Assembly (NCBI GenBank): GCA_021848365.1 | Contig: JAJZUS010000002.1 | Span: 310,001 to 374,000 of the forward strand | Length of the DNA stretch: 64,000 nucleotides | Source of the DNA: Actinomycetes bacterium | Lineage (GTDB): Bacteria > Actinomycetota > Acidimicrobiia > Acidimicrobiales > RAAP-2 | Reading direction: 5' to 3' | In this document: piece by piece, positions 1 to 47,652 of the stretch | Layout: each line of letters begins with the position of its first letter | Numbering within the stretch: the stretch's first letter is position 1 | Translations under genes and position numbers: made by a program | Notes under the pieces: generated by a model | Seen by the model: only the letters and a program-made list of their open reading frames with translations | Database searches by the model: none | Told to the model about the DNA's origin: nothing

Positions 1-1554
1 GGAGCGACGAAGGCCCACGAGGAATCGCGCGGCCGGGTACCGTCGGGCGAGTCGCAGGGCGGCGGCCTCGACGACGGCCGGGTCCTCGGCGAGGTTCGAG
101 CGGCCGAGCACCACGACGACGCCCTCGCCCTCGCCGAGCAGCGAGCGCGCCTCGGCGAGGTCGAACTCGCCCAGGGTCAGGGTGTGGTCGACCGCGTCAC
201 CGCAGAGCGCGGCCGCGACGCGGTCCGCCTCGCCGGGGCGGGTCGGCAGGTTCACGCGGGCGAGCGGGGCGAGCGAGCTCGTCCCGGCGCCCATCTCGAT
301 GAGGGCGCTGCGTCCGGACGCGAGCGGGGCGCGCAGGCGCAGGAAGAGGACCGGCAACGTCTCGCGCAGGTCCCCGGCGAGGTTGACGATCACGCGCGCC
401 GCCGCCGTCTCGTCGATCGTCGCACTGGGCAGCGCCTGGACCAGGACGGGGTCGAGCCCGTCCCCGTACTGGGCGTCGAGGTGGTCGCTGCCGAGCGCCT
501 CGCGGACCAGTCGGCCCCAGGCGTAAGCGCCCTCGTTCGTCAGCGCGGCGCCACCGATGGCGCCCACGCCCCCCTCCGTCGCGGCGGCAGCGCCCAGCAG
601 GCGCGCGGCCTCGGCCAGGGCCTCGCCCCAGGTCGCGGGTTCGAGGGAACCGTCGCGGCGCACGAGTGGCGTGGTGATGCGGGTCGCCGGTGAGAGCGGG
701 TCGGTCGACTCGTCGTTGCCGTCGACGCTGTCGAGGGTGAAGCGGCCCTTGTCGCACAGCCAGCCGTGGTTCACCGGGTCAGAGTCGACGCCGAGCACGC
801 GCGTCAGGCGATTCCCCGACGACTGGACCGCGACGCGGCACCCCACGGCGCAGGTCGTGCAGGTGCTCTCCACCTGCTCGAGGTCCCACGGACGCGCGGT
901 GAAGCGGTAGGGCTTCGCCGTGAGCGCCCCGACCGGACAGATCTGGACGGTGTTGCCCGAGAAGACGGAGTCGAAGGGGTGCTGGGGGGAAGGGGCGACC
1001 TCGATCAGGTCGCCGCGCCCGGCGAAGTCGATCTGGGCGTCGCCCGCGACCTCGGCGGCGAAGCGGGTGCAGCGCGAGCACTGGATGCAGCGCTCGCGGT
1101 CGAGCAGGACGAGTGGCCCGATGCTGATCGGCTTCTCGAAGTGGCGCTTCTCCTCGATGAAGCGGGTCTCGCCCGAGCCGTGGGCCAGCGCCTGGTCCTG
1201 GAGTGGGCACTCGCCGCCCTTGTCGCAGACCGGGCAGTCGAGGGGGTGGTTGGCGAGGAGGAACTCGAGGACACCGTCCTGGGCCTTCTTCACCCGGTCG
1301 CTACCGGTGTCGACGACCATGCCGTCGTTCACCCGGATGTAGCAGGCCGGCTGCAGGGTCGCCCCGCGGGGTCCCTCCACCTCGACCAGGCACATGCGGC
1401 AGACGCCGACGGGCTCCATGCGCGGGTGGTAGCAGAAGCGGGGGATGTAGTCCCCGGCCCGGGCCGCGGCCTCGATGAGGAGCTCGCCCGGCTGGGCCGC
1501 GACGGGTCGCCCGTTGAGGGTGATCGTGACGGAGGTCGTGGTCTGGTCAGTCAT
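1..1554 (-). CDS. nuoG: NADH-quinone oxidoreductase subunit G, C-terminus outside window
   Basis: This is the large iron-sulfur subunit of complex I, which carries electrons from NADH-FMN (NuoF) towards NuoI/NuoB. The first 518 codons are present and the reading frame runs off the left edge. An N-terminal [2Fe-2S] ferredoxin region is visible (CYHPRMEPVGVCRMC), followed by HPLDCPVCDKGGECPLQD, a cluster set RCIQCSRC and a molybdopterin-oxidoreductase-type CTTCAVGC site. The start ATG overlaps the nuoF stop by 8 bases, so the two are translationally coupled. It is the last nuo gene visible; nuoH-nuoN presumably continue outside the window. Confidence 0.95.
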   Translation of the reverse strand, partial: MTDQTTTSVTITLNGRPVAAQPGELLIEAAARAGDYIPRFCYHPRMEPVGVCRMCLVEVEGPRGATLQPACYIRVNDGMVVDTGSDRVKKAQDGVLEFLLANHPLDCPVCDKGGECPLQDQALAHGSGETRFIEEKRHFEKPISIGPLVLLDRERCIQCSRCTRFAAEVAGDAQIDFAGRGDLIEVAPSPQHPFDSVFSGNTVQICPVGALTAKPYRFTARPWDLEQVESTCTTCAVGCRVAVQSSGNRLTRVLGVDSDPVNHGWLCDKGRFTLDSVDGNDESTDPLSPATRITTPLVRRDGSLEPATWGEALAEAARLLGAAAATEGGVGAIGGAALTNEGAYAWGRLVREALGSDHLDAQYGDGLDPVLVQALPSATIDETAAARVIVNLAGDLRETLPVLFLRLRAPLASGRSALIEMGAGTSSLAPLARVNLPTRPGEADRVAAALCGDAVDHTLTLGEFDLAEARSLLGEGEGVVVVLGRSNLAEDPAVVEAAALRLARRYPAARFLVGLRRS

Positions 1555-2851
1555 GCGGGCAGCCCCCGTGGTGCGCGTGCGCGAGGAAGTCGTCGCGGAA
1601 CATGGTGATGGCCGACTTGATCGACGAGGGGATCGAGGGGCCGAGAACGCAGATCGTCGTCTGCGCGGGCGGCCACGTGAGCCCGGGGGCGATGTTGTCG
1701 CAGAGGTCGAGGAGGAGGTCGACGTCCTCGACGCGACCGCCACCGTGCTCGAGGCGGTACATGATCCGCTCGAGCCAGCCCGACCCCTCCCGACAGGGCG
1801 TGCACTGGCCGCACGACTCGCGGGAGAAGAACTTGGTGATGCGCCACGCCGCCCGCACCGGGCAGGTGGTGTCGTCCATGACGACGACCGACCCCGAGCC
1901 GAGCATCGAGCCCTGGGCTCCCACCTCGTCCTGACCGAGCGGCAGGTCGAGCAGTTCCGGGCCGAACCAGGGCGCCGAGACGCCTCCGGGAATGAAGGCC
2001 CGCACCGGGCGGTCGCCGATGACGCCACCCCCGAGGGCGGGGTCGTAGACGAGGTCACGGAAGGTGTTCTTCACCATCTCGATCTCGTAGACGCCCGGTC
2101 GGTTGACCCGCCCCGACAGCGCGAAGAGGCGCGTGCCGGCCGAGCGGCCGGCCCCCAGGGCGGCGAAGGCCGCTCCGCCGTGGGTCACGATCCACGGCAG
2201 GTTCGACATGGTCTCGACGTTGTTCACCACCGTGGGCTCGCCGTAGAGGCCGGTCACCGCGGGGAAGAACGGGGGCTTGATCCGCGGGAAGCCCCGCTTG
2301 CCCTCGAGCGCCTCGATGAGCGAGGTCTCCTCGCCGCAGATGTAGGCGCCCGCGCCGGGGTGCACGACGATGTCGAGGGAGAAGTCCGACCCGAAGATCT
2401 TGCGGCCCAGCGCACCGTGGTCGTAGGCGTCGTTGACCGCCTGCTGCACCCGCTCGAGCCCGAGGGCGAACTCGCCGCGCAGGAAGATGAACGCCTGGGT
2501 CACCTGGAGCGCGTAGGCGGCGATGATCACGCCCTCGACGAGCTGGTGAGGATCACGCTCGACGAGGTAGTGGTCCTTGAAGGTCGCCGGCTCCGACTCG
2601 TCGCCGTTGACGACCAGGTAGGAGACGGGCGACTTGCGCAGCATCGACCACTTGCGCCCGGCGGGGAACCCGGCGCCGCCGCGGCCCAGCAGCGAGGCCG
2701 CGTCGACCTCGGCCGCGACCGCCTCGGGGAACATGGTGAGGGCCTTGCGTAGGCCCTCGTAGCCGCCCGTCGCGAGGTAGCGGGTCAGGGTGAAGGAGTC
2801 CGTGAACTCGGAGCGCGACGAGACGATGCGGGGGGCGTCGAGACTGGCCAC
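1547..2851 (-). CDS. nuoF: NADH-quinone oxidoreductase subunit F
   Basis: This 434-residue subunit binds NADH and FMN and starts electron transfer in complex I. The glycine-rich GRGGAGFP (56-63) and ICGEETSLIE (171-180) are the nucleotide/FMN signatures, and SCGQCTPC (346-353) supplies three of the four ligands of cluster N3, with a fourth Cys near 393. The length is normal for the family. The start is GTG, directly abutting the TAA of nuoE with no spacer; no ATG lies nearby that would keep the full N-terminus. Confidence 0.96.
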   Translation of the reverse strand: MASLDAPRIVSSRSEFTDSFTLTRYLATGGYEGLRKALTMFPEAVAAEVDAASLLGRGGAGFPAGRKWSMLRKSPVSYLVVNGDESEPATFKDHYLVERDPHQLVEGVIIAAYALQVTQAFIFLRGEFALGLERVQQAVNDAYDHGALGRKIFGSDFSLDIVVHPGAGAYICGEETSLIEALEGKRGFPRIKPPFFPAVTGLYGEPTVVNNVETMSNLPWIVTHGGAAFAALGAGRSAGTRLFALSGRVNRPGVYEIEMVKNTFRDLVYDPALGGGVIGDRPVRAFIPGGVSAPWFGPELLDLPLGQDEVGAQGSMLGSGSVVVMDDTTCPVRAAWRITKFFSRESCGQCTPCREGSGWLERIMYRLEHGGGRVEDVDLLLDLCDNIAPGLTWPPAQTTICVLGPSIPSSIKSAITMFRDDFLAHAHHGGCPHD

Positions 2852-3472
2852 TTACTTCGCCTCCGTCGCCGCCCGGGCCTCGCGCGCAGCGCGCGCGGCG
2901 GCCCGCTCGGCACTCAACTCGTCCCGCTCCACGCGCAGGCCGCCGTTGCGTCGCACGCGGATCAGGGTCCCGTGCGGCGGCACGTCGCCGTCGAGCCGGC
3001 CGGCCCGCAGGTCGGTGACCAGCTGGTCGAAGGCGTCGGGGGTCGTCGTGCGGACGTAGCGGTGATTGACCTGGACGACCGGTGCGATGTTGCAGTCGGC
3101 CAGGCACTCGGTCTCCTCGAGTGTGAACAGCCCGTCGTCGCTCGTGCCGCCCACCGCGCAGCCGAGGGTGCGGCTGGCGTGCTCGAGGAGGTCGTCGCCT
3201 CCCGCGAGCAGGCAGGCGACGTTGGTGCAGACGCCCACGACGTAGCGGCCGACCGGTTCGAGGTGGAACATGTCGTAGAAGGCGGCGGTCCCGCGGACCT
3301 CGGCCGGGGTCGTGCCGGTCAGTTCGGCGATCTCCTCGATCGCCCCGTCGGTCACGTACCCGTCCTGCTCCTGGGCCAGGTGCAGCATCGGCAGCATGGC
3401 GGAGCGCCGTCGCGGGTAGACCGCCACCAGCTCCTCGGCCCGCTGGCGCACGTCAGCACGGAAATGGCTCAT
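2852..3472 (-). CDS. nuoE: NADH-quinone oxidoreductase subunit E
   Basis: This 206-residue thioredoxin-fold subunit carries the [2Fe-2S] cluster N1a beside NuoF. All four ligands are present: Cys82 and Cys87 (VCTNVAC) and Cys123 and Cys127 (ECLADC). A charged Ala/Arg/Glu-rich tail of about 35 residues follows the conserved domain. The ATG start overlaps the nuoD stop by 4 bases (ATGA); longer upstream frames belong to nuoD. Confidence 0.96.
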   Translation of the reverse strand: MSHFRADVRQRAEELVAVYPRRRSAMLPMLHLAQEQDGYVTDGAIEEIAELTGTTPAEVRGTAAFYDMFHLEPVGRYVVGVCTNVACLLAGGDDLLEHASRTLGCAVGGTSDDGLFTLEETECLADCNIAPVVQVNHRYVRTTTPDAFDQLVTDLRAGRLDGDVPPHGTLIRVRRNGGLRVERDELSAERAAARAAREARAATEAK

Positions 3473-4821
3473 CGGTCTACCTCTCCCATGATCGGGTCCA
3501 CCGTCGAGATCACGGTGATGGCGTCGGCCATCGAGGCGCCGCGCATGAGCAGCGGGATGGCCTGCAGGTTCACGAAGCTCGGGGCGCGCACGTGCAGCCG
3601 GTAGGGCTTGGGCCCCCCGTCGCTCACGATGTAGCAGCCGTGCTCGCCGCGGGGCGACTCGACGGCCGAGTACACCTCGCCCGCGGGCACGTGGAATCCC
3701 TCGGTGAACAGCTTGAAGTGGTGGATCAGCGCCTCCATCGACTCGCCGATGCGCGCGCGCGGCGGCGGCGTCACCTTGGGGTCCTGGCTGCGGTAGTCGC
3801 CCGCGGGCATGCGCTCGAGGCACTGGCGGATGATCCGGACCGACTCGCGGATCTCGTTCAGGCGGATCGCGTAGCGGTCGAAGTTGTCGCCGTAGGTCCC
3901 GACGATCACGTCGAAGTCGACCTGGTCGTAGGCGAGGTACGGCATCGTCCGGCGCAGGTCCCACGGCACCCCCGTCGATCGCAGGAGCGGACCCGTGACG
4001 CCGAGTGCCAGGGCCTCCTCGGCCGAGATCGGCGCCACGCCCACCATGCGCTGACGGAAGATGGGCTGGCCAGTGAGCAACTCGTCGTACTCGAAGGTGC
4101 GCTCGTAGATCGTGTCGCAGATGACCTCGACGTCGTCCTCCCAGCCATCGGGCAGGTCGGCGGCGACGCCGCCGGGGCGCACGTAGTTGAGGTTGAGGCG
4201 CAGGCCCGCCGTCTTCTCGAAGAAGGCGAGGATCAGCTCGCGCTCGCGGAAGCCGTAGATCATCATCGACGTGGACCCGAGGTCCATGCCGTTGGTGGCC
4301 ATCCAGACGAGGTGCGAGCTGATGCGGTTGAGCTCGCTCATCATCATCCGGATCCACACGGCCCGCTCCGGGACCTCGATCCCGAGCAGGGCCTCGACGG
4401 CCATCGAGTACGAGAGCTCGTTGATGATCGGGCTCAGGTAGTCCATGCGGGTGACGTTCGTCGCCCCCTGGACGTAGCTCAGCATCTCGCCGGTCTTCTC
4501 CATGCCGGTGTGCAGGTAGCCGATGACCGGCTTCGCGCGCAGCACGATCTCGCCGTCGAGCTCGAGCATGATCCGCAGCACGCCGTGGGTCGACGGGTGC
4601 GACGGACCCATGTTGATGATCATCGTCTCGTCGTCGGCCCGCTCGTAGTCGACGTCGTCGGGGTTGAACGGGGTGTCGTCGATGCGGACGACCGAGCCCA
4701 CCTCGCGGCCGAGCTCGCTCGCGGGCGTGGCCTCGCGGCGCTGGAGCTCCTGGGGTCCCTCGCTCGTCTCGGCGGTGAGCGCCTCGAGGCGCTCGGCGGT
4801 GCGTACCGTGGGCTCGCTCAT
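3469..4821 (-). CDS. nuoD: NADH-quinone oxidoreductase subunit D
   Basis: This is the 49-kDa-type subunit (450 residues) that forms the quinone-reaction cavity together with NuoB. Family signatures include NMGPSHPSTHGVLR near residue 70 and the C-terminal LRVHAPSFVNLQAIP-type segment. About 60 residues precede the conserved core and are rich in Glu/Thr; this N-terminal extension is longer than in E. coli-type homologues. The start ATG shares an ATGA overlap with the nuoC stop. Confidence 0.96.
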   Translation of the reverse strand: MSEPTVRTAERLEALTAETSEGPQELQRREATPASELGREVGSVVRIDDTPFNPDDVDYERADDETMIINMGPSHPSTHGVLRIMLELDGEIVLRAKPVIGYLHTGMEKTGEMLSYVQGATNVTRMDYLSPIINELSYSMAVEALLGIEVPERAVWIRMMMSELNRISSHLVWMATNGMDLGSTSMMIYGFRERELILAFFEKTAGLRLNLNYVRPGGVAADLPDGWEDDVEVICDTIYERTFEYDELLTGQPIFRQRMVGVAPISAEEALALGVTGPLLRSTGVPWDLRRTMPYLAYDQVDFDVIVGTYGDNFDRYAIRLNEIRESVRIIRQCLERMPAGDYRSQDPKVTPPPRARIGESMEALIHHFKLFTEGFHVPAGEVYSAVESPRGEHGCYIVSDGGPKPYRLHVRAPSFVNLQAIPLLMRGASMADAITVISTVDPIMGEVDR

Positions 4822-5306
4822 CGGGGACCTGGCGCTTCCTTGAATTGCACGGGAACCCGACCGGTCCCGTAGTCCTTGCGCAGCGGGTGCCCCTCCCAGT
4901 CCTCGGGCATGAGGATGCGCGTGAGGTCGGGGTGGCTCCGGAAGATCACGCCCAGGAGGTCGAAGGCCTCGCGCTCCATGGCCTCGCTCCCGGGATAGAG
5001 GTCGAACAGCGAGTCGACCTCGGGCTCCACGTCGCCGGCCTGGACGCGAATGCGCACGCGCTCGCGACGCGACATCGACAGAAGGTTGACGACGACCTCG
5101 AACCGGGTCGGCGTGACGCCCTCGGGCAGCGCGCGATCGGCGTGCTCGAGGTAGTCCACCGCGCAGAGGTCGGCGCAGACCTCGAAGCCGTCGGCCTTGA
5201 ACGCCGCGACGAGGTCGTGGTACTGCTCACGGGTCGGGAAGCACCCGAGGTCGGCGCGCAGGGCGTCGGCGGTGATGACGGCGGGAGCGTCGGCGGGCAG
5301 CTCCAT
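4818..5306 (-). CDS. nuoC: NADH-quinone oxidoreductase subunit C
   Basis: This is the 30-kDa-type peripheral-arm subunit of complex I (162 residues). The family segment FDLYPGSEAMEREAFDLLG and the downstream HPDLTRILMPEDWEGHPLRKDY are visible. A longer frame exists upstream, but the ATG at 5306 overlaps the nuoB TGA by one base (TGATG), the usual coupling in this operon, and gives the normal family length. Confidence 0.95.
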   Translation of the reverse strand: MELPADAPAVITADALRADLGCFPTREQYHDLVAAFKADGFEVCADLCAVDYLEHADRALPEGVTPTRFEVVVNLLSMSRRERVRIRVQAGDVEPEVDSLFDLYPGSEAMEREAFDLLGVIFRSHPDLTRILMPEDWEGHPLRKDYGTGRVPVQFKEAPGPR

Positions 5307-5869
5307 CACTTGGGCGTCCCCAGTCGTACGGCCACCGGGACCTCGGGCGTCCAGGGGCTCTCCGCGTGGTCGAGGTGGACCGGGTTGCCGGTCGCGCGAC
5401 GCTTCATGATCTCGCCGGTGCGGATCTGCTCGTGCAGCGTCAGGATCGCGTGCATCAGCGTCTCGGGGCTCGGCGGGCACCCCGGCGCGTAGACGTCGAC
5501 CGGGACGATCTGGTCGACGCCCTGGACGATCGCGTAGTTGTTGAACAACCCGCCGGTCGAGGCGCAGACGCCCATCGAGAGGACCCACTTGGGCTCCATC
5601 ATCTGGTCGTAGACCTGACGCAGGACGGGGGCCATCTTCTGGCTCACGCGCCCGGCCACGATCATGAGGTCGGCCTGGCGCGGGGAGTTGCGGAACACCT
5701 CCATCCCGAAGCGGGCGAGGTCGAAGTCGGCGGCGCCGCTCGCCATCATCTCGATGGCGCAGCAGGCCAGACCGAAGGTGGCCGGCCACACGGAGGCCCG
5801 ACGCGCCCAGCGCACCAGGTCCTCGAGACGGCCGGTCAGGAAGTTGTGCTGGAGGTCTTCGAGCGCCAC
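5306..5869 (-). CDS. nuoB: NADH-quinone oxidoreductase subunit B
   Basis: This 187-residue subunit holds cluster N2, the last iron-sulfur centre before quinone. The tandem cysteines Cys36-Cys37 ([10 protein letters not shown]), Cys102 (GVCASTGG) and Cys131 (APGCPPSPE) are all in place. The start is GTG, overlapping the nuoA TAG by one base. The C-terminal 35 residues are less conserved. Confidence 0.96.
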
Positions 5870-6318
5870 TACGCCGCCCGCCCCGCGTCGACGCCGATGC
5901 GCACGATGGTCGACGAGCTGGTCCGCGCCGGCATGCCCTTCGCCAGGTGCTTCGCCGGCCCCCAGGAGAGGGCACCCTCACTGACGAGGAAGATCAGCGC
6001 CGCGAACACCGTGAGCGAGAAGGCCAGCACCTCGATCAGGCCGAAGAGGCCCAGCTGGCGGAACACGACGGCGAAGGGGTACATGAAGACCACTTCGATG
6101 TCGAAGATCACGAAGATCATCGCCACGAGATAGAAGCGCACGGGGAAGCGCTGGGGCGGCTCGTACTCGGGGACGATCCCGCACTCGTACGGTGCGGTCT
6201 TCGCGTCCGTGGGCCGCTTGCGCGGGGCCAACAGGGCCGACGCGACAAACGAGCCGGACGCGAACAGCACGCCGAGCACAAGAAGTCCCAGTATGGGGAG
6301 GTACTGGTCCACGTCCAT
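5869..6318 (-). CDS. nuoA: NADH-quinone oxidoreductase subunit A
   Basis: This is the small membrane subunit of complex I (149 residues, three transmembrane helices at about 5-30, 62-85 and 93-113). The family motif YECGIVP followed by [18 protein letters not shown] is clear. About 30 extra hydrophilic residues follow the last helix. It is the first gene of the nuoA-G run; a weak purine-rich AGAAAG lies just before the ATG. The 71 bp to the divergent flavoprotein gene at 6390 must hold both promoters. Confidence 0.95.
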
Positions 6319-9586: not shown

Positions 9587-10857
9587 CCCCGCGCCACCTC
9601 CGCGGCCGCCTCCGCGGCCGCCTCCACGGTACGCGCGTACTCGGCCTCGTGGTGGGCCAGGGAGGGGAAGAGGATCTCGTAGGCCCCGGGGGCGAACGCG
9701 ACCCCGCGCCGCAAGAGGGCGTGGAAGAAGGCCGGGTAGACGTCGGACTCGACGACGGCGCGCACCTCGACGACGTTGCGGGGGGTCGAGAAGGGCTCCC
9801 GCGCGACGTAGAGGCCGGCCAGTGGGCCGACGGTCGGGACCCGAGCCGCGAGACCGGCGGACGTCACGGCCGCCTCGAGCTCCGCGGCGAACCTCCCGAC
9901 GCGCGCGCCGAGCTCCTCGTAGTCCGCGGGACCGACGAGCGAGAGGACGGTGGCTCCGGCCGCCGTCGCCAGCGGGTTCCCGGAGAGCGTCCCGGCCTGG
10001 TACACGGGGCCGAGCGGCGCCAGGTGCGCCATGACTTCGCGAGACCCTCCGAAGGCGCCGACCGGCAGTCCCCCGCCGATCACCTTGCCGAAGGTCCAGA
10101 GGTCGGGTCGCACGCCGAAGTGGTTCGAGGCCCCGGCCGGCCCCAGGCGGAAGCCGGTGATCACTTCGTCGAAGACGAGCAGCGCCCCGACTCGAACGCA
10201 CGCCGCACGCAGTCCCTCGAGGAAGCCGGGCTCGGGCGCGACGAGGTTCATGTTGGCGGCGACCGGCTCGACCACGACCGCGGCCACGGTCTCGTCGATC
10301 TCGGGGACGACGTTGTAGGGCGCGACCACGGTGTCGCCGACGGCCCCGTCGGTGACCCCCGCCGAGCCGGGCAGGCCCAGCTGGGCGACGCCCGAACCGC
10401 CCGCGACCAGGAGCCCGTCGGAGTGGCCGTGGTAGCAGCCGTCGAACTTCACGATGCGACGTCGTCCCGTCGCCCCGCGCGCCAGGCGCACGGCGCTCAT
10501 CACGGCCTCGGTGCCCGAGGAGACGAGGCGCACCTGCTCGAGCCCGGGGACGCGCTCGGTCATCGCCTCGGCGAGGAGGACCTCGCCGGGCGTCGGGGCG
10601 CCGAAGGTCGTCCCCCGGTCGAGGGCTTCGTGCAGCGCCGCTCGCACCGCGGGGTGCGCGTGCCCGAGCAGGGAGGCCCCGTAGGACTGGACGAAGTCGA
10701 TGTAGCGCCGCCCCTCCACGTCGGTGACGTAGGCCCCCTCGCCCGAGACGACCGTGTACGGGGTCCCGCCGACCGAGCGGAACGACCGCACTGGGGAGTC
10801 GACGCCGCCGGGGATGACTCGTCGAGCCCGCTCGAACCAGTCCGCGTTGGTGCTCAC
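9583..10857 (-). CDS. hemL: Glutamate-1-semialdehyde 2,1-aminomutase
   Basis: This PLP enzyme converts glutamate-1-semialdehyde into 5-aminolevulinate in the C5 heme pathway. It has 424 residues, the normal length. The N-terminal PGGVDSPVRSF signature, VFDEVITGFR, and the PLP-lysine segment FGKVIGGGLPVGAFGG (Lys258) are present. The start GTG overlaps the hemB TGA (GTGA). A much longer open frame upstream is antisense shadow of hemB coding. Confidence 0.95.
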   Translation of the reverse strand: MSTNADWFERARRVIPGGVDSPVRSFRSVGGTPYTVVSGEGAYVTDVEGRRYIDFVQSYGASLLGHAHPAVRAALHEALDRGTTFGAPTPGEVLLAEAMTERVPGLEQVRLVSSGTEAVMSAVRLARGATGRRRIVKFDGCYHGHSDGLLVAGGSGVAQLGLPGSAGVTDGAVGDTVVAPYNVVPEIDETVAAVVVEPVAANMNLVAPEPGFLEGLRAACVRVGALLVFDEVITGFRLGPAGASNHFGVRPDLWTFGKVIGGGLPVGAFGGSREVMAHLAPLGPVYQAGTLSGNPLATAAGATVLSLVGPADYEELGARVGRFAAELEAAVTSAGLAARVPTVGPLAGLYVAREPFSTPRNVVEVRAVVESDVYPAFFHALLRRGVAFAPGAYEILFPSLAHHEAEYARTVEAAAEAAAEVARG

Positions 10858-40614: not shown

Positions 40615-41793
40615 TCACGCGCCGGGCGTCGCGCGCACCAGGGAGTGGAAGAAGAGCGCGACCGGCCGGTAGAGCACGTGGGCGAACTTCATCACCGGCA
40701 GCAGCACCAGCAGCTCGAGCGCCAGCGCCACGTGGGCGAGGAAGATCCCGTAGCCCCAGGCCGGTCCCCCGCCGACGTAGAGGGCGACCTCGGTCGCGAG
40801 CCCGCTCGCCCCGACCAGCCAGAGCATCCCGAGCAGGAGCCAGTCGCCGGGCTCGGAGTGCTCGACCGAGGTCGTCGCGCGCCGGACGCGATTGACGAGG
40901 AGCGTCGTGACGCCGACGAGGAGCGCCAGCCCGGCGACCGTGCCGAGCAGGCGCACGGGATACCACACCGGCTCGGGCGTGCCGGTCGCGCGCACGTGGA
41001 GGAGCGCCAGGCCGTAGTCGAGCACCGTCGCGGCGAGCAGGCCGAGGAACCCCCACATCGTGAGGGCGTGGGCGATCCAGCGGCGCCGGTACCAGGGCTC
41101 GGGGGTGCCCGTCGTGCAGTCCTCCCGGTAGCGGCGCTGGCCGAGCGACTCGACGATCGCCGCGTCCCAGGCGGCCCGCCACCCGTGGGCCCAGCCGGCC
41201 CGACCGGCGAGGAGGTGACGCGCGCCGAGCCCCTCGCGACGGGCGACGCCCCGGATCATGGAGGCGAGCCCGCCGAGGGCGACGAGCACGACGACGACCA
41301 TCACGGCGATGCCCGTCCAGTGGATCGTGGCGTCGGGCACGAAGCGGAAGAGGTCGAGTCGGTCGGTCGGGGCCGGGCCGTGATCGAGGGTGAGCAGGGC
41401 GGCGAAGAGGGCCGCCAGCGTCGCGAGGACCCCGAGCGAGGCGAAGGGCCGCGTCGCGAGGAGGCGGGCGACGCCCGTCGGGTCGTAGCGGGTGATCGCG
41501 TAGCGCCGGGCGGCCGCCATGTAGGCGCCGGGGTCGGCCTCCATCGGGCAGCTCTCCGAGCAGGCGGCGCAGTGGTAGCAGGTCCACAGCTCCTTCGAGG
41601 CGAGCAACTCGTCGCGCAGCCCGACGACGCCGTAACGCACCAGGCGTCGCGGGAAGGTCCCGTCGTTGTCGGCGAGGGGGCAGACGGCCGTGCAGTTGCC
41701 GCAGCTCACGCAGGCGCTCACGTCGGGGGCGCCGAGGCGCTGGAGCTCGACGAGCAGGTGGGGGTCGACCACGCGGGGGGCCAGGGTCGTCAT
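40615..41793 (-). CDS. QmoC-like protein: HdrC ferredoxin domain fused to membrane cytochrome b
   Basis: This 392-residue protein joins a cytoplasmic HdrC-type domain with two [4Fe-4S] sites (Cys28/31/34/38 in CVSCGNCTAVC and Cys72/75/78/82 in CYHCAACSESC) to a membrane domain of about six helices resembling NarI/HdrE cytochrome b. Histidines in HWTGIAVM, HALTMWGF, HVALALELLV and FAHVLYRP are candidate heme ligands. This is the architecture of QmoC, which links a soluble Hdr-like complex to menaquinone. It overlaps the upstream 79-residue gene by 4 bases and is the last gene of the tusA-dsrE-hdrA operon. Confidence 0.85.
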   Translation of the reverse strand: MTTLAPRVVDPHLLVELQRLGAPDVSACVSCGNCTAVCPLADNDGTFPRRLVRYGVVGLRDELLASKELWTCYHCAACSESCPMEADPGAYMAAARRYAITRYDPTGVARLLATRPFASLGVLATLAALFAALLTLDHGPAPTDRLDLFRFVPDATIHWTGIAVMVVVVLVALGGLASMIRGVARREGLGARHLLAGRAGWAHGWRAAWDAAIVESLGQRRYREDCTTGTPEPWYRRRWIAHALTMWGFLGLLAATVLDYGLALLHVRATGTPEPVWYPVRLLGTVAGLALLVGVTTLLVNRVRRATTSVEHSEPGDWLLLGMLWLVGASGLATEVALYVGGGPAWGYGIFLAHVALALELLVLLPVMKFAHVLYRPVALFFHSLVRATPGA

Positions 41794-42029
41794 CGCGCGT
41801 CCTTTCGTCCGTAGTGGAAGAACCCCTCGTCGTCGGCCTCGGGGCTCTCGACGACGAACCCGTAGCGGCGCATGCCCATCACCCAGTAGACGACCTCGTG
41901 GGCGGGACGCCCCAGGGCCTCGGCGATCTCGGGGATGGTCCGCGGCCCCGCGGCGAGGGCCTCGAGGATCGGTCGGTGCATCAGGGGCTCGTCGCGGATG
42001 ATCTCGCGGGTGTCACGCAGGGCCGTCAT
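41790..42029 (-). CDS. 79-residue predicted helix-turn-helix protein in the hdr operon
   Basis: This small acidic/basic protein looks like a compact winged helix: MHRPILEALAAGPRTIPEIA, then a recognition-type helix ALGRPAHEVVYWVMGMRRYG, and a C-terminal strand GFVVES. It contains no cysteine. It is locked between the second HdrA and the QmoC-like gene by two ATGA overlaps, so it is made together with the complex; it may be a regulator, an assembly factor or a structural subunit. A similar-sized uncharacterised protein sits in some hdr-type operons, but I cannot claim homology. Confidence 0.7.
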   Translation of the reverse strand: MTALRDTREIIRDEPLMHRPILEALAAGPRTIPEIAEALGRPAHEVVYWVMGMRRYGFVVESPEADDEGFFHYGRKDAR

Positions 42030-43741
42030 GCCGGTACCTCCACCATGCTCTCGATGAGCGCCCGGACCTGGGCGTCGGTGTTGCCGAGCAGGTCGATGGC
42101 GTCGCTCTCGCAGTACGAGACGCACCCGCCGCACCCCTTGCAGCCCGTGGGGTCGACGACGGCGACCGGGCGACCGGAGAGCTCCTGGCGCGAGATCGCC
42201 TCGTAGGGGCAGACCGCGGCGCAGGCGCCGCACCAGGTGCAGGCGTCGGGGTCGACGACGGCGACCTGGGGGTCGAGCTCGGCGACCCCGCGCATGAGCA
42301 TCGCGCCACTCTGGGTGACGGCCGCCATCCCCGAGGCCACGCTCTCGCCGATCGTCTTGGGCGACTGACAGGTCCCGGCGATGAGGACGCCGTCGACCAC
42401 CGTCTCGACCGGCCGCAACTTGGGGTGGATCTCGTTGTAGAAGCCGTCGCTGCCGACCGGCAGGTGGAGCAGCGAGGTGAGCTCGGCGTTCTCGCGCGGG
42501 ACGAGCCCGGTGACGAGGACGACCACGTCGGCCTCGATCGCGAGCTCGGTGGACTCCGTGAGGAGGTCGGTCACCGTCACGCGCAGCCGACCGTCCTCGG
42601 TCGGGACGACCCGCGGCGGGTCGTCGTCGGGGTAGCGCAGGTAGGTCGATCCGCGCCGGCGCGACTCCTCGTAGCTCAGCTCGAATCGCCCGTAGGTCCG
42701 CACGTCGCGGTAGAGGTGGTACTGGCGGACCCGGGGGTCGAGGTCGGCCGCCTCCACCGAGGCGTGCACCGCGGCGGAGCAGCAGTACTTCGAGCAGTAC
42801 TCGTTCCCGTCCGCCTGGCGGCTCCCCACGCAGTAGACGTAGGCGACCGTGCGCACCGGGCGTCCGCGGAAGTGGAGCCGGCCGTGGCGGCTCTCGAGGT
42901 CCCGGGTGAACTCCTCCAGGGTGACGACGCCGGTCAGGCCGAAGCCGAACTCCCCCGGCGACGGCTCGTAGGTCGCCGCCCCGGTCGCCACGACGATCGA
43001 GCCCACCCGGGCGGTGGTGCTCGTCCCGTCCGCCGAGGCGAGCGTCACGTCGTAGTTCCCGAAGCTGCCCGACTTCGCGGCGAGCTCGGTCGAGGTGTGG
43101 ACGGTGACGCGGGGTCGCTCGCCGATCTCGGCGATCAGCTCGTCGACCATCGAGCGTCCGTAGCGCTCGTCCGGGAAGGTGCGCCCGAGACGGGCGACCT
43201 CGCCCCCCAGCTCCTCGCCGCGCTCGACGAGGTGGACGTCGAGGCCGAGGTCGGCGAGGCCGATGGCGGCCCGCAGCCCGGTGACCCCGCCGCCCACGAC
43301 CAGCGAGGCGGCCGTCGTGTCCACCGAGCGCGGCACCAGCGCGTCGCTCTCGGCGGTGCGGGCGATCGCCCCGCGCACGAGGCCGGTCGCCTTCTCGGTG
43401 GCGGCCGCCCGGTCGTCGGTGTGGGCCCACGAGCACTGCTCGCGGATGTTCACCTGCGTGTACTGGAAGGGGTTGAGCCCGGCGCGGCGCGAGACGCCGC
43501 GGAACGTCGTCAGGTGGAGCTTCGGGGAGCAGGAGGCCACGACGAGCCCGTCGAGCCCCTCCTCCTCGATGCGCTGGACCATCTCCTGCTGGGTCCCGTC
43601 CGAGCAGGCGAACATCGCCGTCTCGGCGTAGGCGACCCCGGGCAGTTCGGCGACGGCGTCGCGCACCGCGGCGACGTCGACGTAGTCCGAGATGTTGCCA
43701 CCGCAGTGGCAGATGAAGACGCCGATGCGTCGCTCGGTCAT
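42026..43741 (-). CDS. hdrA: Heterodisulfide reductase subunit A-like / QmoB-like flavoprotein
   Basis: This 571-residue iron-sulfur flavoprotein has the canonical HdrA N-terminal domain (GVFICHCGGNI with Cys11 and Cys13; ACS-type VASCSPKLHLTTFR; NIREQCSWAH), an FAD-binding Rossmann site (LVVGGGVTGLRAA, about 147-159), the HdrA segment CSKYCCSAAVHA, and two C-terminal [4Fe-4S] ferredoxin motifs (Cys501/504/507/511 and Cys534/537/540/544). It likely relays electrons between its flavin and the partner subunits. The C-terminal MvhD domain that QmoB carries is absent and is encoded separately at 46978-47391. ATGA overlaps on both sides. Confidence 0.9.
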   Translation of the reverse strand: MTERRIGVFICHCGGNISDYVDVAAVRDAVAELPGVAYAETAMFACSDGTQQEMVQRIEEEGLDGLVVASCSPKLHLTTFRGVSRRAGLNPFQYTQVNIREQCSWAHTDDRAAATEKATGLVRGAIARTAESDALVPRSVDTTAASLVVGGGVTGLRAAIGLADLGLDVHLVERGEELGGEVARLGRTFPDERYGRSMVDELIAEIGERPRVTVHTSTELAAKSGSFGNYDVTLASADGTSTTARVGSIVVATGAATYEPSPGEFGFGLTGVVTLEEFTRDLESRHGRLHFRGRPVRTVAYVYCVGSRQADGNEYCSKYCCSAAVHASVEAADLDPRVRQYHLYRDVRTYGRFELSYEESRRRGSTYLRYPDDDPPRVVPTEDGRLRVTVTDLLTESTELAIEADVVVLVTGLVPRENAELTSLLHLPVGSDGFYNEIHPKLRPVETVVDGVLIAGTCQSPKTIGESVASGMAAVTQSGAMLMRGVAELDPQVAVVDPDACTWCGACAAVCPYEAISRQELSGRPVAVVDPTGCKGCGGCVSYCESDAIDLLGNTDAQVRALIESMVEVPA

Positions 43742-46467
43742 CGTCCCACCTCCTCCAGCACCGGCGCCGCGACGGCGTGGTGCGCCTCGAGGTACGCCGC
43801 GACACCCGAGACCGCGGCCCCGGCGTGGGCGATCGAGTCCACGATGTCCTTCGGCCCGGAGGCCGCCCCGGCGACGTAGACGCCCGGGATGTTGGTGCGA
43901 CCCGGTTGGAGGTCGCCGTGGGGCTCGAGGACGAAGGCCGCCTCGTCGAGCTCGAGGACGTGGTCCGGGAAGAGGTGGGCCGCGGCCGGGTTGGGCATCA
44001 CGCCGACGGCGAGGACGACGAGGTCGTACTCGGCCTCGGTGATCGCGCCGCCGTGCTCGATGTCCTCGTAGCGCACCACCAGGTTGTGCTCGGGCGTCTC
44101 GGTGATCGAGGCGACCCGACCCTTGATGTACTGGGCGCCCATGTCGCGCGACTGCTGGTAGAACTCCTCGTAGCGCTTGCCCGCCGCGCGGATGTCGATG
44201 TAGTGCATCGTCACGTCGGCGAGGGGCAGGGTCCCCATGATCAGCTGGTTCTGCTTGATCGAGTACATGCAGCAGATCTTCGAGCAGCGCGGGTTGCCGA
44301 CCGTGTGGTCGCGCGAGCCGGTGCACGAGACGTACCCGATCCGCTCGGGCACCCTCCCGTCGCTCGGGCGCAGGATGGTGTTGAACGGTCGCGTGGGGGC
44401 GATCAGGCGGTCCATCTGCATGCCGGTGATCACGTTGGGGAAGACGCCCCACCCGTACTCCGGCTTGAGGTCGGCCGGGAAGAGGGTGAAGCCCGTCGAG
44501 AGGACGACGGCCCCGACCCGCACCTCCTCGACCCGGTCGCGCTGAGTGAAGTCGATCGCGTCGGCCGGACAGGCCCGCGCGCACGACCCGCACTCGGAGC
44601 AGACGCCGCAGTCGAGGCAGGCCGACGCGCCCGCGCGCACCTCGTCCTCGCTGAGCGTGCGCTCGACCTCGCGAAAGCCCGCGGCCTCCTCCGCGCGGCC
44701 CCGCTCGACGCGGGGGTGCTCGGTGAGGCTCTTCTGGCGGGCGAGCACGGCCGCGGGCTCGACGCTCGGGAGCCGCCCGTCGAGGGCGTCGACGCCCCCG
44801 AGCTCCTCGCCGTTCAGGTAGCGGTCGAGGTTGAGGGCGGCCCGGCGGCCCGCGCCGGCGGCGCGCGTGATGTCCGAGGCGCCGGCGACGACGTCACCGG
44901 CGGCGAAGACCGTCGGGAACGAGGTCTGCAGGGTGAGCGGGTCGGCGACGAGTCGGCCCCGCGCGGTGGCGAGGGCGCCCGCCAGGGCGTCGGCGTCGGG
45001 CGAGAGCCCGATCGCCGCGATGACCCGGTCGGCCGCGACGACCTCCTCGGCCCCGAGCACCGGCTCCGGGCGACGACGGCCGCTGGCGTCGGGCTCGCCG
45101 AGGCGCATCGCGACGCAGCGCAGCCCCCGCACCCGTCCCTCGTCGTCGACGAGGACCTCGGAGGGGGCGAGCAGGTGCCGCAGCTCGACGCCGTCGGCCT
45201 CGGCTCCCTCGATCTCGTCGACGTGGGCCGGCATCTCCTCGCGGCCGCGACGGTAGACGACGGTCACGTGGCTCGCCCCGAGGCGCGCCGCGCTGCGCGC
45301 GGCGTCCATGGCGACGTTGCCCCCGCCGACGACGACGACGCGCTCGCCCGCGAGGGCGTCGGCCCGTCCGAGACGGATGTCGCGCAGGAAGGCGAGACCG
45401 CTCGCGACGCCCGCGGCCTCCTCGCCGGGGATCGCCATCGGGGTCGCGACGGGGGTGCCGGTCGCGACGACGACGCCGTCGAAGCCGCGACCGGTGAGCT
45501 CGACCGGGTCCTCGACCCGTGCGCCGGTGAGGATCGTCACGCCGAGGTCGCGCACGTTCTGGATGTCGCGCTCGACGACCTCGCGCGGCAGCCGGTAGGT
45601 CGGCAGGGCGTAGCGCAAGAAGCCGCCCGGCTCGTCGTCGGCCTCGAAGATGGTGACGGCGTAGCCGCGCCGGGCCAGCTGCCAGGCGGCGGTGAGCCCG
45701 GCCGGCCCGGAGCCGACCACGGCGACGCTACGACCGTTGGGCTCGGGCACGACGACCCCCGCGGTGTCGTGCTCGGCGTAGTGGCGATCGGCGAGGAATC
45801 GCTTGATCGCCCGGATCGGAACGGACCCCTCGACCGAGGAGCGGGTGCAGCCGTCCTCGCAGGGGGCGTAGCAGGCCCGGCCCAGCGTGCCGACGAGCGG
45901 GGTCGCCTCGAGGACCAGTTGGAAGCCCTCCTCGTAGCGGCCCTCGCGGGCGAGGGCCACGTAGCCGTGGGCCTTGATGCCGGCGGGGCACTCGCCGCTG
46001 CACGGCGACGTGCCGGCCCGCTCGATGACGACCTTCTTCGGCACCGCCTGGGGGAAGGACAGGTAGACGGCCCGGCGGGGGACGAGGTCGGCGTTGAACT
46101 GGTCGGGGACGGCGACCGGGCAGACCGGCTCGCACTCCTGACACCCCGTGCAGGCCGCCCAGTCCACGTAGGTGGCGTGGTGGTTGACGGTCGCGGCGAA
46201 GCCGCCGTCGGGCCGGGGATGGATCGCGAGGACCTCCGAGGACGAGGCCACCGTCACGTTGGGGTGGTTCATCGTCGAGGACATCTTCGGACCGGAGATG
46301 CAACTCGCGCAGTCGAGCGTCGGGAAGACCTTCGAGAGCAGGATCATCCGCCCGCCGACGCTCGGCTCCTTCTCGACGAGCAGGACCTTGTAGCCCATGT
46401 CACCGAGCTTGAGCGACGACTCCATCCCTCCGATGCCCCCGCCGACGACCATCACGTCGTAGTTCAT
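43738..46467 (-). CDS. HdrA/QmoA-like flavoprotein with inserted GltD-type NAD(P)H oxidoreductase domain
   Basis: This 909-residue protein lacks the HdrA N-terminal domain and starts at the flavin site (VMVVGGGIGGMESSLKLG). The HdrA core continues with LDCASCISGPKM (51-62), a [4Fe-4S] motif at Cys106/109/112/116 and SFPQAVP. A block of about 470 residues (roughly 150-620) is then inserted that looks like the small subunit of glutamate synthase/NfnB: CSGECP, GRACYAPCEDGCTR, a second FAD site (VAVVGSGPAGLTAAW) and an NAD(P)H site (VVVVGGGNVAMDAAR). The HdrA core resumes with cysteine-rich CLDCGVCSECGSCARAC (617-633) and GNPRCSKICCMYSIKQ (724-739). A GGAGGACAC ribosome-binding site precedes the ATG. 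Confidence 0.88.
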   Translation of the reverse strand: MNYDVMVVGGGIGGMESSLKLGDMGYKVLLVEKEPSVGGRMILLSKVFPTLDCASCISGPKMSSTMNHPNVTVASSSEVLAIHPRPDGGFAATVNHHATYVDWAACTGCQECEPVCPVAVPDQFNADLVPRRAVYLSFPQAVPKKVVIERAGTSPCSGECPAGIKAHGYVALAREGRYEEGFQLVLEATPLVGTLGRACYAPCEDGCTRSSVEGSVPIRAIKRFLADRHYAEHDTAGVVVPEPNGRSVAVVGSGPAGLTAAWQLARRGYAVTIFEADDEPGGFLRYALPTYRLPREVVERDIQNVRDLGVTILTGARVEDPVELTGRGFDGVVVATGTPVATPMAIPGEEAAGVASGLAFLRDIRLGRADALAGERVVVVGGGNVAMDAARSAARLGASHVTVVYRRGREEMPAHVDEIEGAEADGVELRHLLAPSEVLVDDEGRVRGLRCVAMRLGEPDASGRRRPEPVLGAEEVVAADRVIAAIGLSPDADALAGALATARGRLVADPLTLQTSFPTVFAAGDVVAGASDITRAAGAGRRAALNLDRYLNGEELGGVDALDGRLPSVEPAAVLARQKSLTEHPRVERGRAEEAAGFREVERTLSEDEVRAGASACLDCGVCSECGSCARACPADAIDFTQRDRVEEVRVGAVVLSTGFTLFPADLKPEYGWGVFPNVITGMQMDRLIAPTRPFNTILRPSDGRVPERIGYVSCTGSRDHTVGNPRCSKICCMYSIKQNQLIMGTLPLADVTMHYIDIRAAGKRYEEFYQQSRDMGAQYIKGRVASITETPEHNLVVRYEDIEHGGAITEAEYDLVVLAVGVMPNPAAAHLFPDHVLELDEAAFVLEPHGDLQPGRTNIPGVYVAGAASGPKDIVDSIAHAGAAVSGVAAYLEAHHAVAAPVLEEVGR

Positions 46468-46482
46468 GTGTCCTCCGCCCGG

Positions 46483-46968
46483 CTAGATGAAGAGGTTGAC
46501 GTTGGCCTCGTCGGCCTCGCCCAGGTAGGTGGCGACCCCGGCGTACTCGAGCCCGTCGATGAGCTCCTCGCGGTGGATGCCCATGACGTCCATCGACATG
46601 GTGCAGGCGATCATCTTGATCCCCTGCTCGCGCGCCGTCTCGATCATCGAGTGGATCGGGTCGACGTGGTGGCGCTTCATCATGTGGCCCATGAGGTGGG
46701 GTCCGGCGCCGGCCAGGTTGAAGTGGGACGTGCGCAGGTGGTCGGCACCGCGCGGCATCATCCATCCGAAGGCCCGCTCGAGGGGGGTCTTCGCGACGTG
46801 GGCCGACGCGTCGACGCGCAGCACGTTGAGGCCCCAGAACGTGAAGAACATCGTCACGTCGTCGCCCATGGCGGCCGCCCCGTTCGCGATGACGAACGCG
46901 GCGAGGATCTTGTCCATCTCGCCGCTGAACACGACGATGGTCTTCTTGGTGGTCGTTGTCTCGGCCAT
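46483..46968 (-). CDS. DsrE/DsrF/DrsH-like sulfur carrier (DsrE2/3 type)
   Basis: This 161-residue protein matches the DrsE_2 family: TIVVFSGEMDKILAAFVIANG, FFTFWGLNVLR, a Met-rich middle section and the signature IACTMSMDVMG with the sulfur-binding candidate Cys122, ending in VNLFI. Family members pass sulfane sulfur to and from TusA. A strong AGGAGG ribosome-binding site overlaps the stop of the upstream gene. Its place between the TusA/MvhD-like genes and two HdrA genes points to sulfur delivery to the complex. Confidence 0.88.
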   Translation of the reverse strand: MAETTTTKKTIVVFSGEMDKILAAFVIANGAAAMGDDVTMFFTFWGLNVLRVDASAHVAKTPLERAFGWMMPRGADHLRTSHFNLAGAGPHLMGHMMKRHHVDPIHSMIETAREQGIKMIACTMSMDVMGIHREELIDGLEYAGVATYLGEADEANVNLFI

Positions 46969-46977
46969 GGTTGCCTC

Positions 46978-47391
46978 CTAGGCGGCGTGGGCACTCGGCC
47001 CGAGGGGCGCGAGCTTCTCGGCGAACTCGCGCATGTGGTTGACGAAGGGCTCCGCGCACACCGAGCAGATGGCGGCCATGGTGACCCGTTGGGGCTCGAG
47101 GCCCTCCTCGGTCAGTCGAGACTGGGCGAGGGAGACGGCACGGGCGGTGCGCTGGTTGCAGTCGGGCAGCAGCGCGCACTCGTCGCCGTCGGCCGCGACG
47201 AAGACGCCGTCGAAGCCGTGACGCAGGGCGTCCACGATCCACCCGGGACGGATCGCGCTGGAGCACGGCACGCTCAGGGTGAAGACGCTCGCCGGGTAGT
47301 GCAGGTGGCGACTCCCCGCGAGGTCGATCCCCGGATCGGAGATGTTGGTCGTGGAGAAGACCAGGATGCGGGGGTGGGCCGGCCCGTCCAC
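46978..47391 (-). CDS. MvhD/FlpD-like (hydrogenase delta / Hdr-associated) protein
   Basis: This 137-residue protein aligns with the electron-transfer subunit MvhD: DLAGSRHLHYPASV, TLSVPCSSAIRPG (Cys43), FDGVFVAADGDEC (Cys72), Cys78 and LEPQRVTMAAI. In normal MvhD a CNWC-type pair near the N-terminus binds the [2Fe-2S] cluster; here that stretch reads STTNISDPG and has no Cys. A different C-x2-C pair (Cys109/Cys112) occurs near the C-terminus. Cluster binding may therefore be altered or lost. It matches the C-terminal domain missing from the second HdrA. The GTG start abuts the tusA stop. Confidence 0.75.
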   Translation of the reverse strand: MDGPAHPRILVFSTTNISDPGIDLAGSRHLHYPASVFTLSVPCSSAIRPGWIVDALRHGFDGVFVAADGDECALLPDCNQRTARAVSLAQSRLTEEGLEPQRVTMAAICSVCAEPFVNHMREFAEKLAPLGPSAHAA

Positions 47392-47652
47392 TCAGGCGGC
47401 CTTGCGCAGGAAGAGCCGGAGGTAACCCGGCTCCTCGACGTACCCGAGGAAGTCGTGGCCCATCTTCTTGCACCACGCGGGCAGGTCCTTCAGGGTGCCC
47501 GAGTCGGTCGCCATGACCTCCATCAGCCCGCCCGCCGGGACGGCCGGGATGCCCTTCTTCGCCGCCAGGATGGGCCCGGGGCAGGACGTGCCGCGCGCGT
47601 CGACCACGGCGTCGGCCTTCAGGTCCCGTAGTTCGTCGATGCTGATCGTCAC
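47392..47652 (-). CDS. tusA: TusA-family sulfurtransferase / sulfur carrier
   Basis: This 86-residue protein has the TusA motif C-P-x-P in GTSCPGPIL (Cys24) followed by the alpha-helix and strand LMEVMATDSGTLKDLPAWCKKMGH; a second Cys61 is present. TusA carries sulfane sulfur as a persulfide. It is the first gene of the seven-gene operon. The GTG start at 47652 is supported by GAGAGGAG (47665-47658) 5 nt upstream; the open frame further upstream crosses the promoter. Confidence 0.9.
   Translation of the reverse strand: MTISIDELRDLKADAVVDARGTSCPGPILAAKKGIPAVPAGGLMEVMATDSGTLKDLPAWCKKMGHDFLGYVEEPGYLRLFLRKAA

Follow-up and report, generated by a model that had tools for sequence, protein, structure and literature searches.

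In a 64,000-nucleotide stretch of an Actinomycetes bacterium genome (contig JAJZUS010000002.1, positions 310,001 to 374,000; hereafter the window), seven open reading frames (ORFs) on the minus strand form an operon at 40615-47652, in the order tusA, mvhD, dsrE, hdrA1, hdrA2, a winged-helix gene and qmoC. We propose, with a probability of roughly 0.45, that the operon encodes a membrane-anchored electron hub of the HdrA/Qmo type, which would oxidize sulfane sulfur on DsrE/TusA and deliver the electrons to menaquinone and NADP+. This is a genuine cassette that also occurs elsewhere in Actinomycetota and in Bacillota. As far as sequence can tell, it has a defined gene set with a conserved core, an insert in HdrA1 with an NADPH-type motif, and a QmoC end module that arose twice.

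The source genome (G000) is 1.96 Mb in size and 96.7% complete. Along the operon the proteins are 86, 137, 161, 909, 571, 79 and 392 amino acids (aa) long, and the genes are spaced by 0, 9, 15, -4, -4 and -4 bases. ORF reading and searches with Pfam/NCBIfam thus confirmed the seven genes, their domains and the short gaps or overlaps described in an earlier note on this DNA. All seven stops were also found by a codon-position gene caller, whose starts differed for dsrE alone; tusA starts with GTG and has GAGGAG upstream.

The distribution of the cassette was assessed by scanning genome contigs with DsrE, which gave 532 relatives. The best 80 were kept. Of the 80, 47 were assigned to the cassette (some incomplete) and 33 were not. 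The 79-aa winged-helix protein (HTH79), used as a marker, was found in 41 of the fetched loci and is adjoined by HdrA2 in 40, so the arrangement is not due to chance. The exception is L027 (8323-10468), where winged-helix, HdrC, HdrB and DsrE genes occur with no TusA or HdrA match in the 8 kb upstream; either a rearrangement of the cassette or faulty assembly may account for this. A profile of the 79-aa protein matched 7/396 Actinomycetota and 5/348 Bacillota genomes, centre genomes included. Within the window's genus, a close DsrE is present in 3 of 37 genomes and one more, G300, has the cassette with DsrE last. The DsrE of G000 is 99% identical to that on an Acidimicrobiaceae contig, and a scan of viral contigs with DsrE gave no match. 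In a Desulfofundulus cassette (L019, 6681-8389) HdrA2 is broken over two frames. The cassette on a contig labelled Actinobacteria (L020) groups 100/100 with a Peptococcaceae cassette, for which a binning error or transfer is possible.

The marker loci end in one of two ways. Twenty of the 41 end in QmoC, as does the window's operon, and 21 in an HdrC of about 100 aa plus an HdrB with one CCG domain (the HdrCB form; the domain was identified by Pfam for L022 and by inspection for five others). Both forms share a core of TusA, MvhD, DsrE, GltD-inserted HdrA, HdrA2 and the winged-helix protein. QmoC is cut by the contig end in L016 and L021; L013, L017, L030, L045 and L078 stop short of the last gene and are left out of the count by type. 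No HdrB-type CCG protein is encoded in the window's operon, and a search of G000 with PF02754 found one fused membrane Fe-S protein of about 600 aa elsewhere. The description of the operon as lacking HdrB therefore holds for this locus but not as a fixed trait, because 21/41 marker loci (including L027, which has no HdrA match) have HdrC with a CCG protein where QmoC would otherwise stand. The earlier note counted an HdrB partner in a fixed operon among the findings that would refute its claim; relatives do have such a partner, and the window's operon does not. In a genome of the window's order (L155) the HdrCB form is accompanied by a second TusA, a DrsE_2 protein and a separate GltD-like gene.

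A core tree was calculated from concatenated HdrA1/HdrA2 (57 rows), leaving out L019 (broken HdrA2), L027 (no HdrA match), L070 (incomplete), L068 (3-kb contig with no HTH79/HdrA match) and L076 (contig equal in length to that of L139, hence taken as identical to it). The QmoC rows of the window type form one clade in this tree (22 rows, 100/100), which is nested among HdrCB rows. The HdrCB rows need four changes and a second QmoC type (L136-138) needs two. Placing both QmoC types in one clade was rejected by the approximately unbiased (AU) test, with p 2.8e-6 for the core tree and 1.3e-80 for the QmoC tree, and a single clade for the second type was not rejected (AU p 0.22). These results indicate that the QmoC end module originated twice, independently. 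The long branches of L140 and L144 limit the rooting of both trees. As these outgroups have QmoC, it may also be older and have been regained, and we do not firmly claim HdrCB as the ancestral form. The TusA/DsrE core is constant and HdrB dispensable, so the core is the most likely location of the sulfur site, and the sulfur chemistry is probably not seated on HdrB.

In Desulfofundulus thermosubterraneus (L152, 15563-17884), Apr and QmoAB are followed downstream by genes for an Fe-S protein with two CCG domains and for a complete QmoC-like protein (198 bits), and the latter groups with the second cassette QmoC type. Clostridial sulfate reducers are described as being without QmoC in the available part of PMC3569383.

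HdrA1, HdrA2 and MvhD appear to form a flavin/Fe-S core that is homologous, subunit by subunit, to QmoA plus QmoB. HdrA1 contains a GltD/Fer4_20 insert at about aa 150-600, between two ferredoxin cluster motifs. This insert is seen in 48/48 cassette HdrA1 rows, compared to 0/10 reference Qmo or intermediate rows. All 48 rows also have the nucleotide motif GGGNV(A/S), which is GGGNVA in the window. It is followed by YRR in 22/22 window-type rows, 15/23 HdrCB rows and 0/3 rows of the second type, which have SLE. We take YRR at this position to be typical of NADPH binding. HdrA2 has an N-terminal HdrA domain and two C-terminal ferredoxin clusters, and matches five distinct PDB HdrA sequences at E about 1e-98 or better. 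The cysteine positions of HdrA1 and HdrA2 are unlike those of canonical Qmo; the pattern is presumably HdrA-like. At reference QmoB loci the MvhD domain is located in the QmoB ORF or adjoining it. In DsrE, Cys122 is invariant in 20 aligned sequences.

The 79-aa protein gave weak helix-turn-helix (HTH) matches only in Pfam/NCBIfam (HTH_20, E 0.0018, under cut-off). Its predicted structure is a confident winged helix (predicted local distance difference test score, pLDDT, 92.7) that resembles ArsR/SmtB DNA-binding domains, with fold matches giving the common winged-helix arrangement only. The protein has no cysteine, none is conserved across the family, and 13 residues are invariant over 34 sequences from two phyla. 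HTH79 may be an ordinary regulator.

The QmoC-like protein combines Fer4_8 with a sub-threshold nitrate-reductase-gamma match, and its NF038018 score lies below the cut-off of 300. Six hydrophobic segments are predicted from hydropathy, and His158, 242, 354 and 372 are invariant in an alignment of 16. The parts for a membrane-bound, NAD(P)H-capable complex, as suggested in the earlier note, are therefore present in this protein and in the GltD part with its NADPH-type motif. Across 396 Actinomycetota genomes NF038018 gave 17 matches at 400-468 bits and six at 163-198, the next match being at 92. All six genomes in the lower group have the 79-aa protein; in G377, the seventh genome with the marker, the cassette is of the HdrCB form. 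The canonical-score QmoC of the 17 genomes (L105-L121) is confined to two families (f51, f54).

Subunit by subunit, the operon is homologous to canonical, AprBA-linked QmoABC, at 23-38% identity. Compared to L145-L150, identities are 33-38% for HdrA1 and QmoA, 25-30% for HdrA2 and the N-terminal part of QmoB, 26-28% for MvhD and its C-terminal part, and 23-26% for QmoC. The differences are the split QmoB, the GltD insert, the TusA, DsrE and winged-helix genes, another QmoC clade, other cysteine positions and the lack of an AprA match in G000. HdrA2 and MvhD are separate genes here (571 and 137 aa), whereas eight reference QmoB ORFs measure 712-755 aa, which is in agreement with the suggestion that QmoB is split into these two. 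The QmoC tree separates the cassette and canonical groups at 100/100, as does the concatenated HdrA1/HdrA2 tree, so that the trees with Qmo references requested in the earlier note place the cassette outside the canonical clade. Based on this placement, the low QmoC score, the split QmoB and the absence of an AprA match in G000, we rejected canonical QmoABC. Together with the CCG search, these tests support the notion that the operon is neither canonical sHdr nor canonical Qmo. Two of six fetched canonical-score loci from Actinomycetota (L146, L148) and L152 from Desulfofundulus read AprB-AprA-QmoA by start sequence.

Two relatives are free of the insert. L140 has the order TusA-MvhD-HdrA1-HdrA2-HTH-QmoC. 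In L144 the order is MvhD-HdrA1-HdrA2-HTH-QmoC; an AprA-like gene lies about 7 kb from it, and there is no TusA/DsrE match in 18 kb. Both trees, which contained no named type II Qmo reference, place L144, with its long branch, on the side of the cassette. Type II Qmo (Vulcanisaeta, Ammonifex) is closer to HdrA and occurs with or without Apr/Dsr (PMC10504309). L144 may be a type II Qmo, and the cassette itself may overlap with the type II set. The cassette differs in having TusA, DsrE and the GltD insert in addition, and the available part of PMC10504309 does not link TusA or a GltD insert to type II.

Table 1. Genes of the operon, with positions in the window.
Gene and product	Position	Strand	Basis
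tusA, sulfur carrier	47392..47652	-	PF01206 E 1.5e-19; CPxP motif present (CPGPI)
mvhD/flpD-like electron-transfer gene, matches C-terminal part of QmoB	46978..47391	-	PF02662 E 1.4e-28
dsrE (DrsE_2 family), conserved Cys in ACTMSMDVMG	46483..46968	-	PF13686 E 8e-61
hdrA1, HdrA/QmoA-like flavoprotein with GltD/Fer4_20 NAD(P)H module	43738..46467	-	HdrA models outside the insert
hdrA2, second HdrA-like flavoprotein, matches N-terminal part of QmoB	42026..43741	-	NF040770 E 9.7e-138
79-aa winged-helix protein (HTH79), cassette marker	41790..42029	-	Weak HTH matches; structure model
qmoC-like, HdrC-type two-cluster ferredoxin and cytochrome b fusion	40615..41793	-	NF038018 186 bits

A Pfam scan of 32 of the 50 other predicted genes in the window gave complex I genes, a RecBCD-like set and transporters, and none was obviously sulfur-related. 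The complex I genes are of the ordinary type (nuoF to nuoA) and lie at 1547-6318, near the left end. AprA (TIGR02061, E 1e-30) and DsrA (E 1e-20) were not found in G000, which for these two proteins extends to the whole genome the observation that the window has no AprAB or DsrAB; AprB was not searched for. At the same thresholds neither protein was found in any of 23 QmoC-side genomes (G000, the 20 QmoC loci and two loci cut before qmoC), and thus the QmoC-side cassette is not a partner of adenosine phosphosulfate (APS) reductase. Among the 21 HdrCB genomes, 13 had an AprA match, 12 of them above its cut-off, and 15 had a DsrA match, of which 13 exceeded the cut-off, and in two sulfate reducers (L151, L152) a separate QmoAB pair is present in the stretch around AprA. 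PF04143 (YeeE) was detected in 7/21 HdrCB and 0/25 QmoC genomes. As this yedE-related family was not found in G000 at E 1e-10, we rejected the reading of the operon as a YTD cluster.

Relatives of a type III sulfide:quinone reductase (SQR) were detected at E 1e-40 in 14/22 window-type, 1/3 second-type and 1/21 HdrCB genomes, with a background of 76/396 in the phylum. Among actinomycete window-type genomes the share is 10/18, above that background (Fisher p 0.0009, kinship not corrected; the background was entered as 74 and 314, an approximate removal of cassette genomes from 76/396). In G245 (L138, 668-4678) the cassette is directly preceded by genes for a type III SQR (616 bits against a cut-off of 525), a second DsrE and a DUF1641 protein, together with two ArsR-type genes. 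The family seen most often beside the core is that of the CsoR-type repressors, at 10/41 loci (PF02583 matched all six that were scanned); the next families reach 7. In nine HdrCB loci (L020, L022, L023, L024, L029, L031, L034, L043, L059) the CsoR-type gene is divergent and lies a few hundred bases upstream of tusA, and L090 has a copy on each side of the cassette. CsoR-type proteins include copper sensors as well as persulfide sensors, and those beside the cassettes are possibly persulfide sensors. The ArsR- or CsoR-type regulators next to several cassettes fit a sulfur response. Scans for tRNA and Rfam families upstream of tusA showed no RNA where the CsoR-type gene sits. In L029 a c-di-GMP-I riboswitch match (10640-10766) lies about 170 bases downstream of the cassette DsrE.

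In the proposed mechanism, HdrA1, HdrA2 and MvhD would constitute the flavin/Fe-S core of a hub with three arms: a sulfur arm (TusA/DsrE), an NADPH arm (GltD) and an exchangeable arm (QmoC or HdrCB). Persulfide sulfur brought by DsrE/TusA would be oxidized at the core. The GltD module of HdrA1 would connect the core to NADP(H) and QmoC would connect it to menaquinone, with electrons being split between menaquinone and NADP+. In other lineages, electrons would instead go from this core to a disulfide via HdrC and the one-CCG HdrB. We infer complex formation, the direction of electron flow, bifurcation and sulfite as the product. The SQR enrichment and the quinone arm hint at oxidation, although they are not decisive. 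A further-reaching version, which we consider doubtful, is that the operon represents a new cytoplasmic route of sulfane-sulfur oxidation beside reverse Dsr and sHdr. Here, a TusA/DsrE-fed HdrA pair would bifurcate persulfide electrons to menaquinone (QmoC) and NADP+ (GltD) with no need for a CCG (HdrB) or lipoate-binding protein, and the end arm would have been exchanged at least twice between the quinone type (QmoC) and the disulfide type (HdrCB). If true, such a bifurcating route would give lithotrophs NADPH without reverse electron flow.

Several observations weigh against an oxidizing hub. No catalytic subunit for sulfite formation was identified. The SQR comparison carries no correction for relatedness. 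G000 itself has no close SQR, its best relative scoring 108 bits against the cut-off of 525, and none was found at E 1e-40 in 8/22 window-type genomes (G000 included) and 2/3 second-type genomes. We therefore dropped a strict link between cassette and SQR, enriched as the latter is. The genome-wide searches in G000 covered only CCG, DsrE_2, AprA, DsrA, SQR, QmoC, PF04143 and the cassette DsrE and winged-helix proteins. Finally, the closest non-cassette DsrE have a coenzyme A (CoA)-disulfide-reductase-like partner in 26/33 loci, which suggests sulfur reduction, again without being decisive.

This last point leads to a somewhat unlikely alternative, an NADPH-dependent sulfane-sulfur reductase. 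GltD electrons would pass via HdrA1/HdrA2 to the TusA/DsrE persulfide and H2S would be released, with QmoC as a quinol link, for detoxification, sulfur respiration or redox balance. The 33 non-cassette DsrE among the best 80 of 532 relatives are 59-65% identical to the window's. The CoA-disulfide-reductase-like protein is encoded directly upstream of TusA-DsrE in 19 of these loci and in one frame with DsrE in 7 (L055, L064, L071, L072, L073, L082, L088); in L071 (7751-10483) a single ORF has CoA-disulfide-reductase-like, rhodanese, TusA and DsrE domains. The reductase names rest on one single protein and one fusion, both below NCBIfam cut-offs. Six of the remaining loci contain a metallo-beta-lactamase/rhodanese-like protein and one has neither. 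These systems share an NAD(P)H flavoprotein partner with the cassette and differ in having a single flavoprotein and neither HdrA nor an arm of the quinone or CCG type. Biochemical work has established a CoA-stimulated NAD(P)H sulfur reductase (PMC9431562), and DsrA is over cut-off in 13/21 HdrCB genomes. The enrichment of SQR with the QmoC form speaks against this reading. A reductase would also leave the menaquinone subunit unexplained, as NADPH alone could drive persulfide reduction.

The absence of a recognizable sulfur oxidase or reductase subunit in the operon (Pfam/NCBIfam) would also be expected if TusA/DsrE supplied thio-cofactor or Fe-S biosynthesis and the redox complex just reset the carrier thiols, and TusA does serve biosynthetic relays too. 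We find this improbable: the patchy spread (a close DsrE in 3/37 same-genus genomes, the marker in 7/396 phylum genomes) argues for an accessory trait, and several flavins, Fe-S clusters and a quinone subunit seem excessive for thiol reset. Similarly, we give little credence to a Qmo-like quinone complex that serves an unlinked partner enzyme, with TusA/DsrE and the winged-helix protein as sensors of the sulfur state. The L144 cluster, with its winged-helix gene and AprA-like neighbour and no TusA/DsrE match, is in line with this, as are the likeness to ArsR/SmtB domains and the winged-helix gene of L027, which stands with HdrC, HdrB and DsrE and no HdrA match. However, TusA and DsrE are present with both end-module forms. 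The winged-helix protein is cysteine-free, highly conserved in mid-operon and, by secondary structure, devoid of the extra dimerisation helices that we take to be an ArsR feature.

Among the known systems, sHdr is linked with TusA/DsrE, and the cassette likewise has TusA and DsrE linked to HdrA-like genes. The window's operon differs in having no HdrB-like partner, a GltD module in place of the lipoate route, and a quinone subunit. We rejected sHdr because an HdrB-like CCG subunit is lacking, the sole CCG protein of G000 being the fused membrane Fe-S protein. LbpA was not seen among the cassette genes or the 32 of 50 other window genes scanned with Pfam; the genome was not searched for it. In sHdr of the Hyphomicrobium type, HdrA-like proteins function in sulfur oxidation and electron transfer to NAD+ has been proposed, and Group III sHdr of Actinobacteria and Firmicutes has EtfBA and lipoate-binding proteins (PMC6067878). 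HdrA type III of ANME-1 and Bathyarchaeota also has GltD inserted beside the HdrA ferredoxin domain (PMC12054007). It is described there from nine sequences in an archaeal methane context with a GXGXXG (NAD) motif, in contrast to GGGNVA plus YRR and sulfur carriers in the window. Thus, GltD-inserted HdrA (PMC12054007), Qmo-like complexes including type II without Apr/Dsr (PMC10504309) and TusA/DsrE relays are already known as parts. In a literature search of full texts (supplements not covered), the available parts of related works, including PMC12142623, PMC9751629 and PMC5736913, gave no description of this gene combination or of the module swap.

A TusA/DsrE-HdrA core that works with or without HdrB would make the place of sulfur chemistry in the superfamily testable. 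Cytoplasmic sulfane-sulfur oxidation is mainly attributed to the Dsr and sHdr pathways, the latter of which has HdrB-like subunits. The cassette is a candidate marker of sulfur metabolism for its bearers in Acidimicrobiaceae and Cellulomonadaceae, in whose tested genomes DsrA and AprA were not detected; Actinotalea lenta and Cellulomonas sp. SG140 are bearers in culture. Another bearer is Desulfofundulus thermobenzoicus (L043), which is listed as a thiosulfate disproportionator (PMC12998232); according to the available part of the same source, the complete YTD cluster, one proposed marker, is found in Desulfobacterota and Nitrospirota only. The cassette is therefore a candidate for the unexplained sulfur metabolism of Gram-positive sulfate reducers.

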